A stretch of 64,000 nucleotides of DNA from Pseudomonas sp. St316 (GTDB lineage Bacteria > Pseudomonadota > Gammaproteobacteria > Pseudomonadales > Pseudomonadaceae): positions 6,542,001-6,606,000 of the forward strand of contig NZ_AP021901.1 of assembly GCF_018325905.1 (NCBI RefSeq), read 5' to 3'. Numbering within the stretch: position 1 is the stretch's first letter; each line of letters opens with the position of its first letter. A program made the translations under genes and the position numbers. The notes under the pieces are model-generated. The model did not search any database. It was not told the origin of the DNA and saw only the letters and a program-made list of their open reading frames with translations. Of the stretch, positions 26,930 to 39,117 are shown in pieces.

Positions 26930-28570
26930 TCAGAGACGGAAACGGCCGACCAGGGTATTGAATGACAGGGCCAGGTTGGACAGCTCCTGGCTCGAAGCAT
27001 TGGTCTGGTTCGCCCCAGCCGCAGTCTGGGTCGAGAGATCCTGGATATTCACCAGATTGCGATCGACCTCACGGGCCACATGGGCCTGTTCCTCGGACGC
27101 CGTGGCAATCACTAGGTTACGGTCATTGATCTGCGAAATACCGTCGGCAATCAGCTCCAATGCCTCGCCAGTGGCGCGGGCCAGACTTTGGGTCTCGGTC
27201 ACCAGCGTCTGGCTCTTGCCCATGGCATCAACCGCACTGTCGGCACGGTCCTGCACCGAGTGGATCATGCTCTCGATTTCACCGGTGGACGCCTGGGTCC
27301 GCGCCGCCAGGGCGCGAACCTCATCGGCCACCACGGCGAAGCCGCGACCCTGCTCCCCGGCGCGGGCCGCCTCGATGGCCGCGTTGAGCGCCAACAGGTT
27401 GGTCTGTTCGGCGATCCCGCGGATCACATCCAGCACCTTGCCGATATCGCGGACCTGCACGGCAAGGTCCCTGACCAGTCCGGTGGATGAGGTAATTTCC
27501 TGGGTGGCGTTGTTGATCGCCTGCACCGCGCTACGAGCCTGATCACGTCCTTCACTGGCCTGCGTGCTGGTCGATTGCGAAGCCTGTGAAGTGGAGACCG
27601 CGTTGCGAGCCACTTCCTCGACCGCCGAAGTCATCTCGGTCACGGCCGTGGCGGCCTGCTGGATCTCGTCATTCTGCCGGATCAAGGCACGACTGCCATC
27701 ATCGGTGACCGCCGTCAGTTCCTCGGCGGCAGAAGCCAACTGGTCCGAAGCGTTGGCAATCTGCTGGATGGTGGACTTCAAGCTCGTCTGCATGTCACCC
27801 AAGGCCTTGAGCAATTGACCGGCCTCGTCGCGACCGCGGCTGGTGATGTGCTGGGTCAGGTCGCCCTGGGCGATGCGTTGCGCGCAATCGACCGCCGTGG
27901 CAATGGGTCGGCTGATCAGGCGGCTGATAAACACGCCCAACAGCAGCGCGGCAATGAAGGCCACGACGATGCCGCTGTACAACACGGTCTTGGCCGTCAC
28001 CTCCTGCTGCGTGGCGGCCTTGGCGTCTTCGCTGATCTGGCGGTCATTGGAGTCGATCATGATGGTCAACTGGTCCATCACCTTGCGATAGGTTTTCTGC
28101 AGGTCACCCAGCAGCAGGGCGCGGCCGTTCTCCAGATCGCCAGCCGCCATCATCGCCACGTACTGCTGAACCATGGCCTGGTAGACCGGCCAATCGCGGG
28201 CCATCTGGTCGCCGGCCAGGCGCTCGTCTTCAGCCAGGATCCCTTTACGGTAAGCGGCGAAGGCCTGTTCACTGGCCAACTGATTGGCTTTCATCGAGGC
28301 AAGAAACTCATCCTTCATGCTCTGCGGGGCGTTGCCGGCGGTAGCGACATACAGCCGGTACATGTCGCGCGTCTGGCCAACCGCCTTGGTCTTGGTCTGC
28401 GACGTGTTGGCGACCGAAACCAGGTTGTTGTTGAACACCCCCAGCAAGCGTGTCGACAGCGCGGAAACACCACTGACGCCCAGCATGCCCACGGCGAGCG
28501 TGATCAAGGCACAGAGGAAAAACGAGGTGATCAGTTTGGTCGATAATTTTGCATCATTGAGCCAGTTCAT
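26930..28570 (-). CDS. Methyl-accepting chemotaxis protein, 4-helix-bundle sensor
   Basis: Inner-membrane chemoreceptor, 546 residues from the ATG at 28570. Layout: cytoplasmic stub and TM1 (about 12-34, [19 protein letters not shown]); periplasmic four-helix-bundle ligand domain (about 35-190); TM2 ([20 protein letters not shown]); HAMP ([20 protein letters not shown]); and the signalling hairpin with the invariant tip [20 protein letters not shown]. No C-terminal CheR-tether pentapeptide is seen. The start is placed at [13 protein letters not shown], the usual beginning; the longer frame upstream is not coding-like. The ligand is unknown. It is convergent with ubiK and divergent from the cytochrome operon. 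Confidence 0.93.
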
Positions 28571-29032
28571 CGGTGGATCCTCATGGGATGCTGGTCCAGC
28601 AGCCCTGTTATGTGTGCATTTCCCTGCCCCGCGTAACGCCAGGTAAAGGGCCTGTGTCCGGATTCCATCGCCGCTCGGGTCCGCCTGCCGACAGGACACT
28701 GTTGGCGCGACGCTTGATAGTTTTTTCGTCATGACGTCGTACAACATCACAAACATACAAGCAAAAACCCCTGTTAACCCTCAAGCTGGATGGAGCGATC
28801 TCCTTTCTTTCCTGCCCATTGCGCTCGCGACGCTTTTGGTCAGAACCCTTCTGAAACACCTTAAATAGAGCCGTTTCATAAAAAAAAAAAATGATGGCCC
28901 TTGGCCATTTTCATTGAGAAATGTTACATCATGTGACATATTCATCGCAACGTAAGACATCGTACGACCGTGCAAGCCTTAACGAACCGAGCCAACGGCA
29001 ACGCGTCGAACCCCAACCGTGAGGAGTTACAC
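28571..29032. other. Divergent promoter region of the chemoreceptor and dehydrogenase operon
   Basis: 462 bp without a supportable gene. It holds a perfect palindrome CGTCATGACG (28727-28736 region), a run of 12 A (28880-28891) followed by an ATGGCC-CTT-GGCCAT hairpin, and a 19-bp near-palindrome at 28921-28939. Base composition is lower in GC than the neighbouring genes, as expected for a regulatory region. Confidence 0.55.
28921..28939. promoter_or_regulatory. Candidate operator upstream of the dehydrogenase operon
   Basis: ATGTTACATCATGTGACAT is a near-perfect palindrome (arms ATGTTACAT and ATGTGACAT around a central C, one mismatched pair). It lies about 95 bp ahead of the cytochrome start, a usual place for a regulator site. 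The regulator is unknown. Confidence 0.5.
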
Positions 29033-31009: not shown

Positions 31010-32640
31010 GCAGCGTTGTTTACGACGCCGATGTGGTCGTCATCGGCTCCGGCGTGATGGGTGGCCTGATCGCCAGCGGCCTGGCCAAGGCGAACAAATC
31101 CGTGATCGTCCTCGAAGCGGGCCCGCGCGTGAACCGCCGCGACATCGTCGAGGCTTTCCGCAATGCGCCGGTCAAGCTCTCGCTGGCCAACGCCAAGCTG
31201 CAGGGTGCCGGCTCGCCCTATCCAAGCCTGCCCCATGCGCCCTCCACCTATGGCGACTACCTGCAACAGGTTGGCCCGGTGAAGTACAACACCTCCTACC
31301 TGCGGGTGGTTGGCGGCACCACTTGGCACTTCGGTTCCTCGCTGTGGCGCATGTTGCCCAATGACTTTCGCCTCAACGCCCTCTACGGGCGCGGGCGCGA
31401 CTGGCCGATCAGCTACGACGAATTGGAACCCTTCTATGCCCGCGCCGAGACCGAGCTGGGCGTGTCCGGGGTCGACGGCCAGGATGAAAGCGGCCAGGGC
31501 GGTGCGGCCTATCCACCGCGCTCGATCCCCTACCCGATGGAAGGCCTGAAGCCCAGCTACATGTTCAAACGCCTCTCGACCCTGTTGAGCAAGGGCGGCT
31601 ACAACCCGATCCTCGAGCCCAATGGTCGCGCCACCCGCCCTTATGGCAAACGCCCACCGTGCGCGGGCAACAACAACTGCAACCCGGTTTGCCCGATCGC
31701 CGCCAAGTACGACGGCTCGATGCATATCGACGAGGCCGAGCGCCACGGCGCCAAGGTCCTGGACAACTCGGTGGTGTACAAGATCGAGGCCGGCGACGAC
31801 GGCAAGATCAGCGCGATCTGGTACATGCGCCCCGACAAGACCCAGCATCGCCTGACCGCCCGCTACTTTGTGCTGGCGGCCTATGGCATCGAATCGCCGA
31901 AGCTGTTGTTGATGTCCACCTCCGAGAAATACCCCAACGGCATCGCCAATACTTCCGACCAGGTCGGCCGCAACCTGATGGACCACACCGGCGTGAGCAT
32001 GAACGTGATGACCAAGGAGGACATGTGGCCCGGCGAGGGACCGACCCAGCTGCTGGTCTACTTGAACAGCCGCGACGGCGCGTTCCGCAAGGACTACCCG
32101 AGCTACAAGATCAAGGTCCGCAACACAGTGCCCACCTCGCAGATCACCACCAACCTGATCGCCAAGGGCGTGCTGGGCTCCAAGCTCGACGAACAGATCC
32201 GCTTGCAGTCGGCGCGTTCCTTGAACTGGGCAGTGGACTTCGAAACCCTGCCACTGCCGGAAAACCGCGTCACCCCAAGCAAAACCCACTTCGACGCAAT
32301 CGGCCTGCCAGTACCGGAAATCTACTACAGCGTTCCCGACTACTGGCATGCCGGCAAGGAAAAGGCGCTGGAGGACCTCAAGCAGTTCGCCCACCTGCTC
32401 GACGCCGACATCCTCAGCACCGACGTCAACTTCCAGAACCGCCAGCACATCATGGGCACTACCATCATGGGCGACGATCCGAAAAACTCGGTGGTCGACC
32501 GCGACTGCCGTAGCCACGACCACGCCAACCTGTTTATCGCCGGGACCAGCGTGATGCCGTCATCGTCCTGCGTGAACCCCACCTTGACGGGTGCCGCGCT
32601 GAGTATTCGTATCGCCGATCAGTTGCTAAGGGAGGTATAG
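31006..32640 (+). CDS. GMC-family FAD dehydrogenase large subunit
   Basis: Catalytic flavoprotein, 544 residues, with no signal peptide of its own. The N-terminal FAD dinucleotide fold is VVVIGSGVMGGLIASGLAKA with the ribose Glu in VIVLEAGPR. A cysteine cluster, RPPCAGNNNCNPVCPIAAKY (near residue 220), matches the place where related glucose and fructose dehydrogenases bind a 3Fe-4S cluster. The C-terminal GMC block has HIMGTTIMGDDP and the catalytic region SSSCVNPTLTGAALSIRIAD. A sugar, sugar acid or polyol is the likely substrate (fructose, sorbitol, gluconate and 2-ketogluconate enzymes share this architecture), but the substrate cannot be fixed from sequence. Its stop is seven bases from the convergent kinase stop. 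Confidence 0.9.
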   Translation: MSSVVYDADVVVIGSGVMGGLIASGLAKANKSVIVLEAGPRVNRRDIVEAFRNAPVKLSLANAKLQGAGSPYPSLPHAPSTYGDYLQQVGPVKYNTSYLRVVGGTTWHFGSSLWRMLPNDFRLNALYGRGRDWPISYDELEPFYARAETELGVSGVDGQDESGQGGAAYPPRSIPYPMEGLKPSYMFKRLSTLLSKGGYNPILEPNGRATRPYGKRPPCAGNNNCNPVCPIAAKYDGSMHIDEAERHGAKVLDNSVVYKIEAGDDGKISAIWYMRPDKTQHRLTARYFVLAAYGIESPKLLLMSTSEKYPNGIANTSDQVGRNLMDHTGVSMNVMTKEDMWPGEGPTQLLVYLNSRDGAFRKDYPSYKIKVRNTVPTSQITTNLIAKGVLGSKLDEQIRLQSARSLNWAVDFETLPLPENRVTPSKTHFDAIGLPVPEIYYSVPDYWHAGKEKALEDLKQFAHLLDADILSTDVNFQNRQHIMGTTIMGDDPKNSVVDRDCRSHDHANLFIAGTSVMPSSSCVNPTLTGAALSIRIADQLLREV

Positions 32641-32647
32641 GGCCTGC

Positions 32648-33925
32648 TCAACCCTGCGCCGCCCGCTGAGAGGGGGCCGGGGTCTGTGCCAGCGGCAGCT
32701 CCAGGATAAACAGCGCGCCCCTGCCCAGCCCGGCGCTCTGCACGGTCAGATCGCCACCCATCTCGTGCGCCGCCAGAATGCAGCTGTGCAGGCCAAAGCC
32801 ATGGCCGTTGGTCCGCGTGGTAAAGCCATGCTCGAATACCCGCGCAAGATTGTCCGGCGAAATTCCCTCGCCATTGTCCTCGACCTCGACCCGCACGCGC
32901 CTGTCGTCAACGACCTTCAAGCGCAGGATGATCTGCGGCGGCCGGTTCGCACCCGCCTCCAGCGCCTGCTTGGCGTTGTTGATCAGATTGACCAGGATCT
33001 GCAGCACTCGGTGCTTGTCCAGCGGCATTTGAGGGACATCGCTGAACGCCTTGACCAGCGTGATGTGGTGACGGGCCAGGGACACATCGCAAATGCGCAC
33101 GACATCCTCGACCAACTCTCGCAACGAGCCCGGCTCCAGTACGCTGGAGTTGCCCGCGTAGGACTGCTGGGTGGCGACGATGTCCTTGATATGGTCGATT
33201 CTGCTGGTCAACTGCGCCAACTCGGCGATCATCGCCTGCTGCTCGATTGCCAGCGCGTCGGCCAGCTTGTCGAGATAGTCGGGTAGCGCGCGACCTTTCG
33301 GGTCGCTGCTGATGAAATCACCGAGATCGTCGGGATGCGCCTTCATCAACTGGACGACCTTGGCCACTCCGGGTCCCTTGGATGTATTCACCTTCTCGTA
33401 CAGGACCTGGGCTGACACATTGACGCTATTGAGCACATTGCCCACGTTGTGCAGCACGTTGGTGGCGATCTCCGCCATACCGGCCCGGCGCGCGGTGGTG
33501 ACCAGCTCGGCCTGCGCCTCGCGCAACTCGTCATTGACCTTGGCCAGTTGCTTCGGGCTGGGGATCTTCAGCGCCGCCGGCACCAACCGAACCAGCAGGA
33601 TGGCGGTAATCACCGAGGCAATCGCGGTGATCACCTTGACCAGCGCCGACAGCCAGTAATAGGGCTGCCAGATGGTCAGGATCTCCATCACATGGCTGGT
33701 CCCGCAGGCCAGGATAAACACACCAAAGGCCGCCAGCATCCAATCAAACGGCACATCCTTGCGCTTGTGGATAAAGTACAGGAGGGTGAAGGGGATGGTG
33801 ACGTACGACAGGGTGATCAAGCCGTCGGCGATCACATTGGTCCACAGCAGGTCCGGACGCCACATGTAGCAATGCCCGTGAGGCATGAAACGCTTGTCGG
33901 TTAACAGAGCCAGCAGATCGTTCAT
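32648..33925 (-). CDS. Ethylene-receptor-like (ETR1 domain) sensor histidine kinase
   Basis: 425-residue membrane histidine kinase. The N-terminal 115 residues form three membrane helices that align without gaps to the ethylene-binding domain of plant ETR1 over its ligand-site region: D34, Y41, I44, P45, I71, C74 and H78 correspond to ETR1 D25, Y32, I35, P36, I62, C65 and H69. C74/H78 (ACGTSH) would be the copper ligands. A coiled linker leads to the phospho-acceptor H159 (NVLHNVGNVLNS) and an HATPase domain with N-box NLINNAKQALE, G1 DNGEGI and G2 GHGFGLH. No GAF, PAS or receiver domain is present. Start: ATG at 33925 with GAGGA ahead; a GTG six bases upstream is less likely. No response regulator is adjacent. 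Confidence 0.88.
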   Translation of the reverse strand: MNDLLALLTDKRFMPHGHCYMWRPDLLWTNVIADGLITLSYVTIPFTLLYFIHKRKDVPFDWMLAAFGVFILACGTSHVMEILTIWQPYYWLSALVKVITAIASVITAILLVRLVPAALKIPSPKQLAKVNDELREAQAELVTTARRAGMAEIATNVLHNVGNVLNSVNVSAQVLYEKVNTSKGPGVAKVVQLMKAHPDDLGDFISSDPKGRALPDYLDKLADALAIEQQAMIAELAQLTSRIDHIKDIVATQQSYAGNSSVLEPGSLRELVEDVVRICDVSLARHHITLVKAFSDVPQMPLDKHRVLQILVNLINNAKQALEAGANRPPQIILRLKVVDDRRVRVEVEDNGEGISPDNLARVFEHGFTTRTNGHGFGLHSCILAAHEMGGDLTVQSAGLGRGALFILELPLAQTPAPSQRAAQG

Positions 33926-34177: not shown

Positions 34178-35674
34178 ATGTCGCTCGCCATCGTCCACAG
34201 TCGCGCCCAAGTAGGGGTCGAGGCTCCTGCCGTTACCGTTGAAGTCCACCTGGCCAATGGCTTGCCATCGCTGACGATGGTTGGCCTGCCGGAGGCGGCG
34301 GTGAAGGAAAGCAAGGATCGGGTGCGCAGCGCGATCATCAATTCGGGGCTGAACTTCCCGGCACGGCGCATCACCCTGAACCTGGCACCGGCAGATCTAC
34401 CAAAAGACGGCGGGCGCTTCGACCTGGCCATTGCCTTGGGGATCCTGTCGGCCAGCGTGCAGGTGCCAACCCTGACGCTGGACGACGTGGAATGCCTTGG
34501 TGAGCTGGCATTGTCCGGCGCGGTACGGCCGGTGCGCGGGGTATTGCCCGCGGCCCTGGCGGCGCGCAAGGCCGGGCGCATGCTGGTGGTGCCGCGGGCC
34601 AATGCCGAGGAGGCCTGCCTGGCCTCGGGGCTGAAGGTGATCGCCGTGGACCATCTGCTCGAAGCGGTGGCGCACTTCAATGGGCACACACCGGTCGAGC
34701 CTTTCGTTTCCAATGGACTGCTCTCGGCCAGCAAGCCCTACCCCGACCTGAACGAAGTACAAGGCCAGGCCGGGGCCAAGCGGGCCTTGCTGATTGCCGC
34801 CGCGGGGGCTCATAACCTGTTGTTCAGCGGGCCACCGGGAACTGGCAAGACACTGCTGGCGAGCCGACTGCCGGGGCTGTTGCCCCCCCTGGCCGAGAGT
34901 GAGGCCCTGGAGGTCGCGGCCATCCAGTCGGTGGCCAGTTGCGTGCCGTTGAGCCATTGGCCGCAACGGCCGTTTCGCCAGCCGCACCATTCGGCTTCCG
35001 GGCCCGCGCTGGTGGGTGGCGGGTCAAAACCGCAACCGGGGGAGATCACCCTCGCTCACCATGGGGTGCTGTTTCTGGATGAACTGCCGGAATTCGACCG
35101 CAAGGTGCTGGAGGTCTTGAGAGAGCCACTGGAGTCTGGGCACATCGTGGTTTCTCGTGCCCGCGACCGAGTGCGTTTCCCGGCGCGTTTCCAGTTGGTG
35201 GCGGCAATGAATCCCTGCCCTTGTGGATATCTTGGCGAGCCCAGCGGCCGCTGCTGCTGTACACCGGACATGGTGCAGCGCTACCGCAACAAACTCTCCG
35301 GCCCGCTGCTGGACCGCATCGACCTGCACCTGACCGTCGCCCGGGAAGCCACGGCGTTGACCCCCAAGAACGAACCTGGGGACGATACGGCCACGGTCGC
35401 CGAGCAGGTGGCCGAGGCCCGTGAGCGTCAGCACAGGCGCCAGGGTTGCGCCAACGCCTTTCTTGATCTGCCGGGGTTGCGCCGGCACTGCAAGTTATCC
35501 ACAACCGATGAAACCTGGTTGGAAACCGCCTGTGAACGGCTGACCCTGTCGCTGCGCGCCGCTCACCGCTTGCTCAAGGTCGCCCGGACGTTGGCAGACC
35601 TGGAGCAAGCGGGGGGCATCCGCCGCGAGCACTTGGCCGAAGCGTTGCAGTATCGGCCAGCTACGACACCCTGA
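34178..35674 (+). CDS. comM: ComM/YifB family AAA ATPase (Mg-chelatase-like)
   Basis: Cytoplasmic hexameric helicase that promotes branch migration during natural transformation in Vibrio and other bacteria. 498 residues. The N-terminal ChlI-like domain starts MSLAIVHSRAQVGVEAPAVT with GLPSLTMVGLPEAAVKESKD. The AAA core has Walker A FSGPPGTGKTLLASRLPG and Walker B GVLFLDELPEFDR, and MNPCPCGYLG is the family zinc-type motif. The C-terminal lid begins RLTLSLRAAHRLLKVARTLA. AAGGA precedes the ATG. It is common also in non-competent species. The gene ends six bases before the convergent DUF4432 gene. Confidence 0.95.
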   Translation: MSLAIVHSRAQVGVEAPAVTVEVHLANGLPSLTMVGLPEAAVKESKDRVRSAIINSGLNFPARRITLNLAPADLPKDGGRFDLAIALGILSASVQVPTLTLDDVECLGELALSGAVRPVRGVLPAALAARKAGRMLVVPRANAEEACLASGLKVIAVDHLLEAVAHFNGHTPVEPFVSNGLLSASKPYPDLNEVQGQAGAKRALLIAAAGAHNLLFSGPPGTGKTLLASRLPGLLPPLAESEALEVAAIQSVASCVPLSHWPQRPFRQPHHSASGPALVGGGSKPQPGEITLAHHGVLFLDELPEFDRKVLEVLREPLESGHIVVSRARDRVRFPARFQLVAAMNPCPCGYLGEPSGRCCCTPDMVQRYRNKLSGPLLDRIDLHLTVAREATALTPKNEPGDDTATVAEQVAEARERQHRRQGCANAFLDLPGLRRHCKLSTTDETWLETACERLTLSLRAAHRLLKVARTLADLEQAGGIRREHLAEALQYRPATTP

Positions 35675-37140: not shown

Positions 37141-39117
37141 TCAGCGGAACCGATCAACCTCTTGGCGCAGGTCCTGGGCCAGTTTTTCCAGTTCCTTGGC
37201 GGTGAGCGCCAGGTTCGAGACCACTTGGCGCTGTTCGCTGTTGGCCATGGCAATGCTTTGCAGGTTACTGCTGAGCAAGGTCGCGGTGCTGCTTTGTTCC
37301 TGGGTGGCGGTGGTGATCGCCGCAAATTGCTGGCCGGCCGAGCGGCTCTGCTCATCGATGCGCGCCAGGGCGGTGGCCACGTTGGCATTGCGCGACAGGC
37401 CTTCCTGCATCAACAGGTTGCCCTGCTCCATCGTGCTGATGGCATTGCCGGTTTCCTGCTGGATGCTATTGATCATGCTGGAAATTTCGTCAGTGGCCTG
37501 GCGGGTGCGGGAAGCCAGGCTGCGGACTTCATCGGCCACCACGGCGAAACCACGGCCCTGCTCGCCGGCGCGGGCAGCTTCGATGGCGGCGTTCAAGGCC
37601 AGCAGGTTGGTCTGCTCGGCAATCGAGGTGATCACACCCACGATGCCACCGATTTCCTGGGAACGCTGGCCCAAGGTATTGATGACCGTGGCCGTGCTGT
37701 TCAGCGCACCGGCAATTTGTTCCAGGGACGACGACGCTTCGTCCATCGAGGTCCGGCCAATACGGGTTTGTTGAGCGTTTTCCTGGGCCAGGCGCTCGGT
37801 ATTGCCCATGTTGTCGGCAATATTCAATGAGGTGGCACTGAACTCTTCCACCGCACCGGCCATGCTGGTGATTTCGCCGGATTGCTGCTCCATGCCTTCA
37901 TACGCTCCGCTGGACAACCCGGACAGCGCCTGGGCACGGCTGTTGACCTCCTGGGAGGCCTTGCGGATGTGCTCGACCATGGTCGACAAGGCCTGGCTCA
38001 TCTGGTTGAAGGCACGAGCCAACTGACCGATCTCGTCATGGCTCGACACGTTCAGGCGCACGCTCAGGTCGCCGGCGCCCAACGCTTCGGCCTGGCGCAC
38101 CAGGTCCCCAAGCGGCGCCAGTTTGCTGCGCAGCAACCACATCGCCGACCCGACTGCCAACAACATCGCCAGCAGGCTGCCAATGGCCAGTTGCGTACCG
38201 ACGCTCCAGGTCACGGCGCGAATCTCGGCTTTCGGCATGCTCGCCACCACCGCCCACGGCCCACCTTCGAACGGTACGGCAACGCTGTAGAAATCTTCGG
38301 CGGTATCTGTCCAGAACGCGCCCTTGCCCGGCTTTTTGATCAGAGCCGTAATGGTCGCGGTAGCGTTGTCCAGCGCCTGCACACCGGCCGGCGGTACCAG
38401 CCATTTGTTTTGTTCGTCCAGCAGCGCCAGGGAACCGGTCTGGCCGATCCGGAAGCGCTTGAGGTTCTCGAACTGCGCGTTCTGCGCATCGGTGTAGTCG
38501 AAGCCTACGTAAAGCACGGCAATGATCTTGCCGCTGCTGTCGCGTACGGGCGTGTACTGCGACATGTAGAAGCGTCCGAACAGCAGGGCTCGACCAATGT
38601 AGCTCTGCCCGCTGATCACCGGACCATAGGCAGGGCCGGCGCGATCGAGCACGGTACCAATGGCCCGCGTGCCGTCCTGCTTACTGACTGAAGTACTGAC
38701 GCGGATGAAATCATCGCCGCTGCGCACGAATACCGTGGCAACCCCGGCGGTCATCGCTTTGAAGTCATCCACTTCCTTGAAGTTGTTGTTCAACACTTCG
38801 CCGCCCAGGCTCAAGCCCGGGGTTTGTACGCCCGCCACCGTCACCGGCTGGTCCGGATGCACGCTCAGGCCCGCGCTGAAGCGCTTTTCGAACAGGCCGG
38901 CCAACCGCTGAGTACTCTCGCGCAAGGTGCTGTGGAAGGTATTGAGCTGGTCGGCCATCAGACGCGCTTCGCTGGCCAGATGTTCTTCACGGGTGGCAAG
39001 GTTCGCAGCGTCCAGCGAACGCAAGGCGAAGACGGTACTGCCGGAGATCACGACCGCCAGTATCACGGCGAGGGCAAGGCCTAGCTGTGAGGCGATCCGG
39101 GCACGGGGTTGAGACAT
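37141..39117 (-). CDS. Methyl-accepting chemotaxis protein with Cache sensor domain
   Basis: 658-residue inner-membrane chemoreceptor. TM1 is at about 10-32 ([20 protein letters not shown]). A large periplasmic Cache-type domain (about 35-310) has the family blocks [37 protein letters not shown] and [16 protein letters not shown] (Cache_3-Cache_2 pattern). TM2 ([20 protein letters not shown]), HAMP ([20 protein letters not shown]) and the signalling tip [20 protein letters not shown] follow. This Cache type usually binds small molecules such as amines or organic acids; the ligand here is not known. It is flanked by a REPIN and a LysR gene. Confidence 0.93.

Follow-up and report, generated by a model that had tools for sequence, protein, structure and literature searches.

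The locus described here raises two questions: does a Pseudomonas histidine kinase with a plant-type membrane domain act as an ethylene receptor, and which output would it control? We analyzed a window of 64,000 nucleotides from Pseudomonas sp. St316, in which the initial annotation had pointed out such a kinase and called it an orphan. Our best reading, to which we give slightly less than an even chance, is a copper-dependent ethylene receptor that feeds c-di-GMP through IHxDF receivers. The gene itself is genuine, under selection and complete for a kinase of the ethylene receptor type.

The open reading frame had been placed at 32648..33925. This interval was correct, and the strand has to be added: the gene lies on the minus strand and runs from an ATG at 33925 down to 32648, stop included, to encode 425 amino acids. 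On the plus strand the first frame of the same interval is interrupted by stops. A ribosome-binding-like site (GAGGAAG, 33937-33931) is found directly 5′ of the ATG. When the protein was searched against Pfam, ETR1_N matched residues 26-121 (126.2 bits against a cut-off of 27; E 6.1e-37) and HATPase_c matched residues 303-413 over its cut-off (E 8e-20; 32687..33019, minus strand). HisKA, GAF and PAS were absent among the seven Pfam families matching at E≤1, which bears out the minimal architecture first proposed, an ethylene-binding domain (EBD) plus kinase with no GAF or PAS. Plant ETR1, unlike this kinase, carries GAF and receiver domains. From the ETR1_N match and an AlphaFold2 model, the EBD was assigned to residues 1-125 (33551..33925, minus strand). 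Residues 126-265 (33131..33550, minus strand), aligned to four paralogues, form a linker and a divergent DHp region with the motif VLHNVGNVLNS and no Pfam HisKA match.

The EBD was compared with an AtETR1 N-terminal sequence, which itself scores 117 bits against ETR1_N. By BLAST the two are 35% identical over 108 columns, gapless from the Asp to the Cys as the initial annotation had said, and the likeness to ETR1 is far beyond chance. All seven ethylene-binding residues of ETR1 are present (D34, Y41, I44, P45, I71, C74 and H78), with 40 residues from D34 to C74. On the minus strand, D34 (33824..33826) corresponds to ETR1 D25, C74 (33704..33706) to C65, a copper ligand in the accessible text of PMC12643061, and H78 (33692..33694) to H69, which the literature excerpts also give as a copper ligand. 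The claims about these residues and their spacing were confirmed. The profile search placed the N-terminus in ETR1_N at 126 bits and in no other membrane family, and none of the 20 Pseudomonas copies lacks any of the seven residues.

AlphaFold2 predicted three helices in the EBD, at residues 24-54, 61-86 and 90-119 (mean pLDDT 85.4, pTM 0.70). The full-length model, with a pTM of 0.44, is too weak for detail. Basic residues sit between helices 1 and 2 and after helix 3, a pattern that fits a periplasmic N-terminus and a cytoplasmic kinase. No match was obtained when PDB sequences were searched with the EBD profile, and Foldseek with the EBD returned nothing at E≤0.001.

We then determined how widespread the domain is. 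With the window genome counted in each sample, ETR1_N was found in 20 of 298 Pseudomonas genomes, 29 of 398 Pseudomonadota genomes (28 over the cut-off), 12 of 369 genomes of the class sample and 1 of 198 of the family sample. The window genome has it once, in the kinase at 6.57 Mb. The weakest match of the Pseudomonadota search, L068 (E 6.6e-4, below the cut-off), is probably due to chance; we take this protein to resemble part of an oxidase subunit. Among the best 120 of 7998 protein matches, all scored at E≤0.001, those with a stated organism are Pseudomonas. The close matches listed include P. brassicacearum, P. kilonensis and P. thivervalensis, in agreement with the suggestion of a plant-associated pseudomonad. 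In one strain the homologue is annotated as a “putative incomplete histidine kinase”. That proteobacterial ethylene receptors were already known also holds, both from the 29 of 398 Pseudomonadota genomes with EBDs and from AzoEtr1, reported as proven in the accessible part of PMC11819568. An EBD kinase in proteobacteria is not new in kind. Judged by sequence, this kinase is a new member of the ethylene receptor family and its minimal HNVGN architecture is a new variant, and we count its probable c-di-GMP output as part of what makes it one.

The neighbors of the gene give no partner. Upstream lies a Mg_chelatase-family gene (Pfam; 34178-35674, plus strand), which we take to be comM. Downstream, on the opposite strand, are genes for a cytochrome c, a FAD-SLDH-type subunit and a GMC oxidoreductase (Pfam), and this set ends at 32640, 7 bases off. 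No response regulator gene adjoins the kinase gene, whose neighbors are the GMC oxidoreductase gene and comM. Chemoreceptor genes at 26930-28756 and 37141-39117 (-) flank the locus by a few kilobases (MCPsignal; 4HB and Cache). The EBD-kinase gene lies within 1.5 kb of comM in 17 of the 20 Pseudomonas carriers, the window genome included. The other three, L021, L022 and L023, have it at another site, near what are presumably dnaN/recF/gyrB-like genes.

The transmitter belongs to a small family in this genome. His159 lies in the VLHNVGNVLNS motif and is followed by Asn, not by an acidic residue. It is at least 90% conserved in 38 sequences, the ATP-binding residues of HATPase_c are conserved as well, and by sequence H159 is the likely phosphoacceptor. 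Kinase activity is not assured, because of the Asn after the phosphoacceptor and the lack of a Pfam HisKA match. The window genome has five HNVGN kinases, and the other four are 54-56% identical to the EBD kinase. One of these, the DAHL-domain kinase at 1.334 Mb (P0123), is 55% identical to it over 280 residues. In a midpoint-rooted tree with several long branches, the window kinase is joined by L023 with support of 100/100. One side of the tree (99/96) contains the EBD kinases and also a hybrid kinase of the window genome, encoded at 4.05 Mb; this hybrid is nested with the EBD kinases of P. gingeri and P. batumici (L021/L022; 91/96, on long branches). A single clade of EBD kinases is therefore not supported. 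The opposite side comprises the DAHL kinases and those encoded at 3.15 and 3.91 Mb, and the tree gives no support to the DAHL kinase as the nearest paralogue of the EBD kinase. The hybrid (L094 7995-11741, minus strand) has two successive transmitters: HAMP-HisKA-HATPase-REC is followed by one of the HNVGN type, which has a HATPase of its own.

Candidate receivers were located at 1.33 Mb. The window genome has three strong matches to the IHxDF receiver, all in this place, and three more that are weak and partial; the motif DDTPxIHxDFRKIL is common to the three strong ones, which are the REC domains of a REC-kinase, a REC-GGDEF-EAL and a REC-PAS-GGDEF-EAL protein. The cluster encodes the DAHL kinase, a REC-HisKA-HATPase protein, a MauG-like cytochrome peroxidase, a REC-GGDEF-EAL protein of 624 aa and a REC-PAS-GGDEF-EAL protein of 763 aa. 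In the 763-aa protein GGDEF is intact and the EAL motif is lost; EAL is intact in the 624-aa protein, where GGDEF reads GSDEF. From these motifs we predict that the former is a c-di-GMP cyclase and the latter a phosphodiesterase. Two further features of the cluster were recorded. The gene for the MauG-like di-haem cytochrome peroxidase (L078 9864-10823, minus strand) separates the DAHL kinase gene from the GGDEF/EAL genes. The REC-HisKA-HATPase protein (L078 6761-8068, minus strand) has 435 aa, compared with 464-505 aa in the copies of the relatives listed, and its last ~30 residues fall outside the alignment to a 469-aa Duganella protein.

Kinase family and receiver family were found together repeatedly. 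An HNVGN kinase and an IHxDF receiver on GGDEF/EAL proteins occur in 17 of the 18 Pseudomonas clusters examined. Among 14 loci picked by the REC-PAS-GGDEF-EAL regulator, 13 have the kinase (the exception is L253), and the receiver adjoins in 4 of 4 loci picked by the DAHL kinase. The 14 regulator-picked loci, the window genome and genome G149 make up 16 of at least 28 places with a P0124-like regulator. Specificity residues of kinases and receivers were compared by eye. P0124-like regulators (E≤1e-200) are present in 20 of 20 EBD-positive Pseudomonas genomes, compared with at least 7 of the first 40 EBD-negative ones by number (Fisher p 2e-10, in a test that ignores relatedness). They are likewise present in L021, L022 and L023, the carriers with the gene at another site. 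Of the 20 carriers, G149 alone gave no P0123-like DAHL kinase at E≤1e-150, among the 22 of 72 candidates scored in that genome.

In two relatives the EBD-kinase gene itself adjoins a regulator gene. In L023 (genome G149) it lies tail-to-tail with a REC-PAS-GGDEF-EAL gene, whose product has an IHxDF receiver. In Duganella sp. BJB480 (L109), whose kinase is 64% identical to the window kinase by alignment, it overlaps the start of a REC-PAS-GGDEF-EAL-REC gene by 4 nt. The next gene there encodes a REC-kinase, 60% identical over 405 residues to the REC-kinase from the cluster of the window genome. In the window genome the kinase at 6.57 Mb and the receivers at 1.33 Mb are on one contig, neither adjacent nor in the same operon. 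The description as an orphan is thus right at the window locus, where no regulator adjoins, and does not extend beyond it, since L023 and L109 encode the kinase beside regulators and matching receivers are found elsewhere in the window genome.

A route from ethylene to c-di-GMP can be drawn from these observations. The three-helix N-terminal domain would hold Cu(I) through C74 and H78, with D34, and would sense ethylene, most likely of plant-root or soil origin. The ligand state would alter autophosphorylation at H159 of the HNVGN transmitter, and phosphate would then pass to, or be taken off, the IHxDF receivers at 1.33 Mb, which would serve the DAHL-domain kinase of that cluster as well. In this way ethylene would adjust c-di-GMP, and through it motility, attachment and biofilm. 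We infer the binding of copper and ethylene, the phosphotransfer and the sign of the effect. The closest precedent found for such wiring is Xanthomonas PcrK/PcrR, in which, according to the excerpts of PMC7700396, a cytokinin receptor kinase controls a c-di-GMP phosphodiesterase response regulator. It is likewise a plant-hormone kinase acting on a c-di-GMP regulator, and differs in its CHASE sensor domain and its hormone. GeiEtr2 of Geitlerinema is similar in that the gene for a diguanylate cyclase-domain protein forms a group with its EBD gene, and differs in being cyanobacterial and 1025 aa long (PMC6682694, accessible sections, which describe no pairing with a receiver). We searched the literature and found no Pseudomonas ethylene receptor and no similar pair of receptor and c-di-GMP protein, which is weak evidence of absence with subscription papers mostly out of reach.

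As a general rule, EBD genes do not have c-di-GMP genes beside them more often than other kinase genes do. Counted within 300 bp or as fusions, they occur at 9 of 40 EBD loci and at 10 of 37 control kinases (p 0.79); the counts are 7 and 9 within 150 bp, and 10 and 12 within 1 kb. As controls, 37 HATPase loci were hand-picked in 13 of the genomes sampled for EBDs, from the top-scoring matches listed, a choice that favours hybrid kinases. Domains near both kinds of loci were found with small home-made profiles. EBD-PAS-GGDEF-EAL fusions number two, compared with none in the control, and this is not significant (p 0.49). A general enrichment was accordingly dropped (9/40 and 10/37), and the wiring claim therefore rests on the family-specific HNVGN/IHxDF pairing. 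The two fusions, each in one polypeptide, are L205 3954-7055 and L207 3909-6497, both on the minus strand, and L207 has Asn in place of the Asp of the site. EBD kinases of other than the HNVGN type with c-di-GMP neighbors include those of L113 (REC-DUF3369-GGDEF), L115 (REC-GGDEF-EAL-REC) and L151 (REC-REC-HD_5).

The co-occurrence of EBD and receiver is confounded by descent, as 17 of 20 carriers share the comM site. The receiver cluster is present in EBD-negative genomes too, and the DAHL kinase alone could account for it. There are also competing partners, the four other HNVGN kinases, three of which have no IHxDF receiver in the 16-17 kb around each. The kinase could be an ethylene receptor with another partner, such as chemotaxis-type receivers or a different response regulator, while the DAHL kinase alone serves the IHxDF receivers. 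We consider this rather unlikely. It agrees with the P. gingeri locus (L021/L110), where the kinase gene is divergent from an MCP-domain gene and a CheY-like receiver, and with P. batumici (L022/L108), where it lies near a CheA-type gene. The che-type genes of L021 are on the opposite strand, however, no IHxDF receiver was found in the stretches of L021 or L022, and REC-PAS-GGDEF-EAL proteins with an IHxDF receiver are the partners both in the nearest relative (L023) and in Duganella. For two other HNVGN kinases of the window genome the receiver is not of the IHxDF type; it lies nearby in L093 and within the same protein in L094. The latter, the 4.05 Mb hybrid, is also the nearest non-EBD transmitter on the tree, rather than the kinase of the 1.33 Mb cluster, and its receiver differs. 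AzoEtr1 pairs with a single-domain receiver of 135 aa (PMC11819568, accessible part).

The identity of the ligand was considered in the light of a Pfam-drawn sample of 40 EBD loci, 29 from the phylum search and 11 from the class search. This sample excludes the window's locus, one 48-aa fragment and one match below the cut-off, and two loci found twice were counted once. D34, C74 and H78 are all kept in 30 of the 40 loci, and all seven residues in 21. In L200 and L201, Arg replaces the copper-ligand His (CGVTR) beside an intact Cys, and these probably do not bind ethylene in the manner of ETR1. Ahead of helix 1 the window kinase has the motif H16-G-H-C19 (33869..33880, minus strand), which falls outside the Pfam ETR1_N model, on the predicted periplasmic side and in a low-confidence part of the structure model. 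H16 and C19 are kept in 34 of 40 loci: 29 of the 30 with the Asp/Cys/His site, compared with 5 of the 10 without it. These counts were taken from the Pfam-drawn sample, as the named loci selected by the pattern FMPHGHC are biased and were not used. The HGxC motif could be a copper entry site or form a disulfide. The second option is raised by plant ethylene receptors, which form disulfide-linked dimers at the N-terminus (PMC12744750, accessible text), where bacterial EBDs have HGxC.

With the same copper site, the domain might instead respond to Cu(I) availability or to a small unsaturated or pi-acid gas (CO, acetylene or propylene), and not to plant ethylene. We regard this as unlikely. In its favor, EBD kinases are also found in bacteria that have no evident association with plants, groundwater MAGs for example, and HGxC, just ahead of helix 1, might serve as an additional metal ligand. 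Against this, the window copy keeps all seven ethylene-binding residues, and as the full set is found in just 21 of 40 sampled EBDs, it is of the complete kind. Moreover, AzoEtr1 of Azospirillum brasilense Sp7, a proven ethylene receptor with the same layout (D35/C75/H79), binds ethylene (PMC11819568, accessible part). The sole match to ACC deaminase in the window genome is below the family cut-off (226 compared with 392 bits), and there is therefore no sign of breakdown of the ethylene precursor by this enzyme.

Among known receptors, AzoEtr1 is another membrane histidine kinase of a plant-associated proteobacterium, with the seven residues at the same spacing, one residue off. AzoEtr1 has 525 aa with a PAS domain, and the gene for its stand-alone REC protein overlaps its own gene (PMC11819568, accessible part). 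The window kinase has no PAS, no adjacent receiver and an HNVGN-type transmitter. SynEtr1 (slr1212) of Synechocystis shares the EBD, the histidine kinase and a phosphorelay output; in contrast, it has a GAF domain and is bifunctional for ethylene and light, and its partner slr1213 acts on a small RNA (PMC11819568 and PMC7700396, in the excerpts). Plant ETR1 shares the membrane domain, with its seven residues and ungapped Asp-Cys spacing, and differs in that its signalling is mainly kinase-independent according to the accessible part of PMC11819568.

Selection was measured against nine intact close relatives (L095, L096, L098, L099, L100, L103, L104, L107 and L112). The dN/dS of the EBD (residues 1-125) is 0.015-0.066 and that of the kinase 0.11-0.23, so that the EBD is under strong purifying selection among these relatives and the sensor domain is therefore kept by selection. 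In the distant copies L023, L108, L109 and L110, where synonymous sites are near saturation, the EBD gives 0.09 and 0.16 where computable and the kinase 0.135-0.257. The P. corrugata DSM 7228 copy (L106 10001-11278; L020) is interrupted at about residue 184 and was left out; a pseudogene or a misassembly could account for it. A receptor in decay, or a vestige that has lost its function, would fit this interrupted copy and the patchy distribution (20 of 298 Pseudomonas genomes), but this reading is largely refuted by the low dN/dS of both domains and is very improbable.

The gene neighborhoods of the relatives suggest that the sensor controls the messenger that decides between swimming and settling in a biofilm. 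For A. brasilense, the accessible part of PMC11819568 reports that ethylene lowers c-di-GMP and that the receptor affects biofilm, and its authors state that the signalling pathway is unknown. A more specific picture, possible and doubtful, is that rhizosphere pseudomonads related to P. brassicacearum and P. corrugata use a plant-type receptor to sense the ethylene of plants directly and convert it to c-di-GMP through the receivers of the DAHL kinase, with HGxC as a periplasmic Cu(I) capture site feeding the membrane copper site. If this is true, a single DGC/PDE pair would answer to two sensors with transmitters of the same family, and these sensors would either compete for it or set it together. 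Such an arrangement would also be a candidate explanation of how ethylene leads to the fall in c-di-GMP in Azospirillum, and ethylene would be the second plant hormone, after cytokinin (PcrK/PcrR), to be read through c-di-GMP. A complete receptor-type kinase, together with candidate receivers that would make and break c-di-GMP, makes an ethylene-to-behaviour route in root-associated pseudomonads directly testable.
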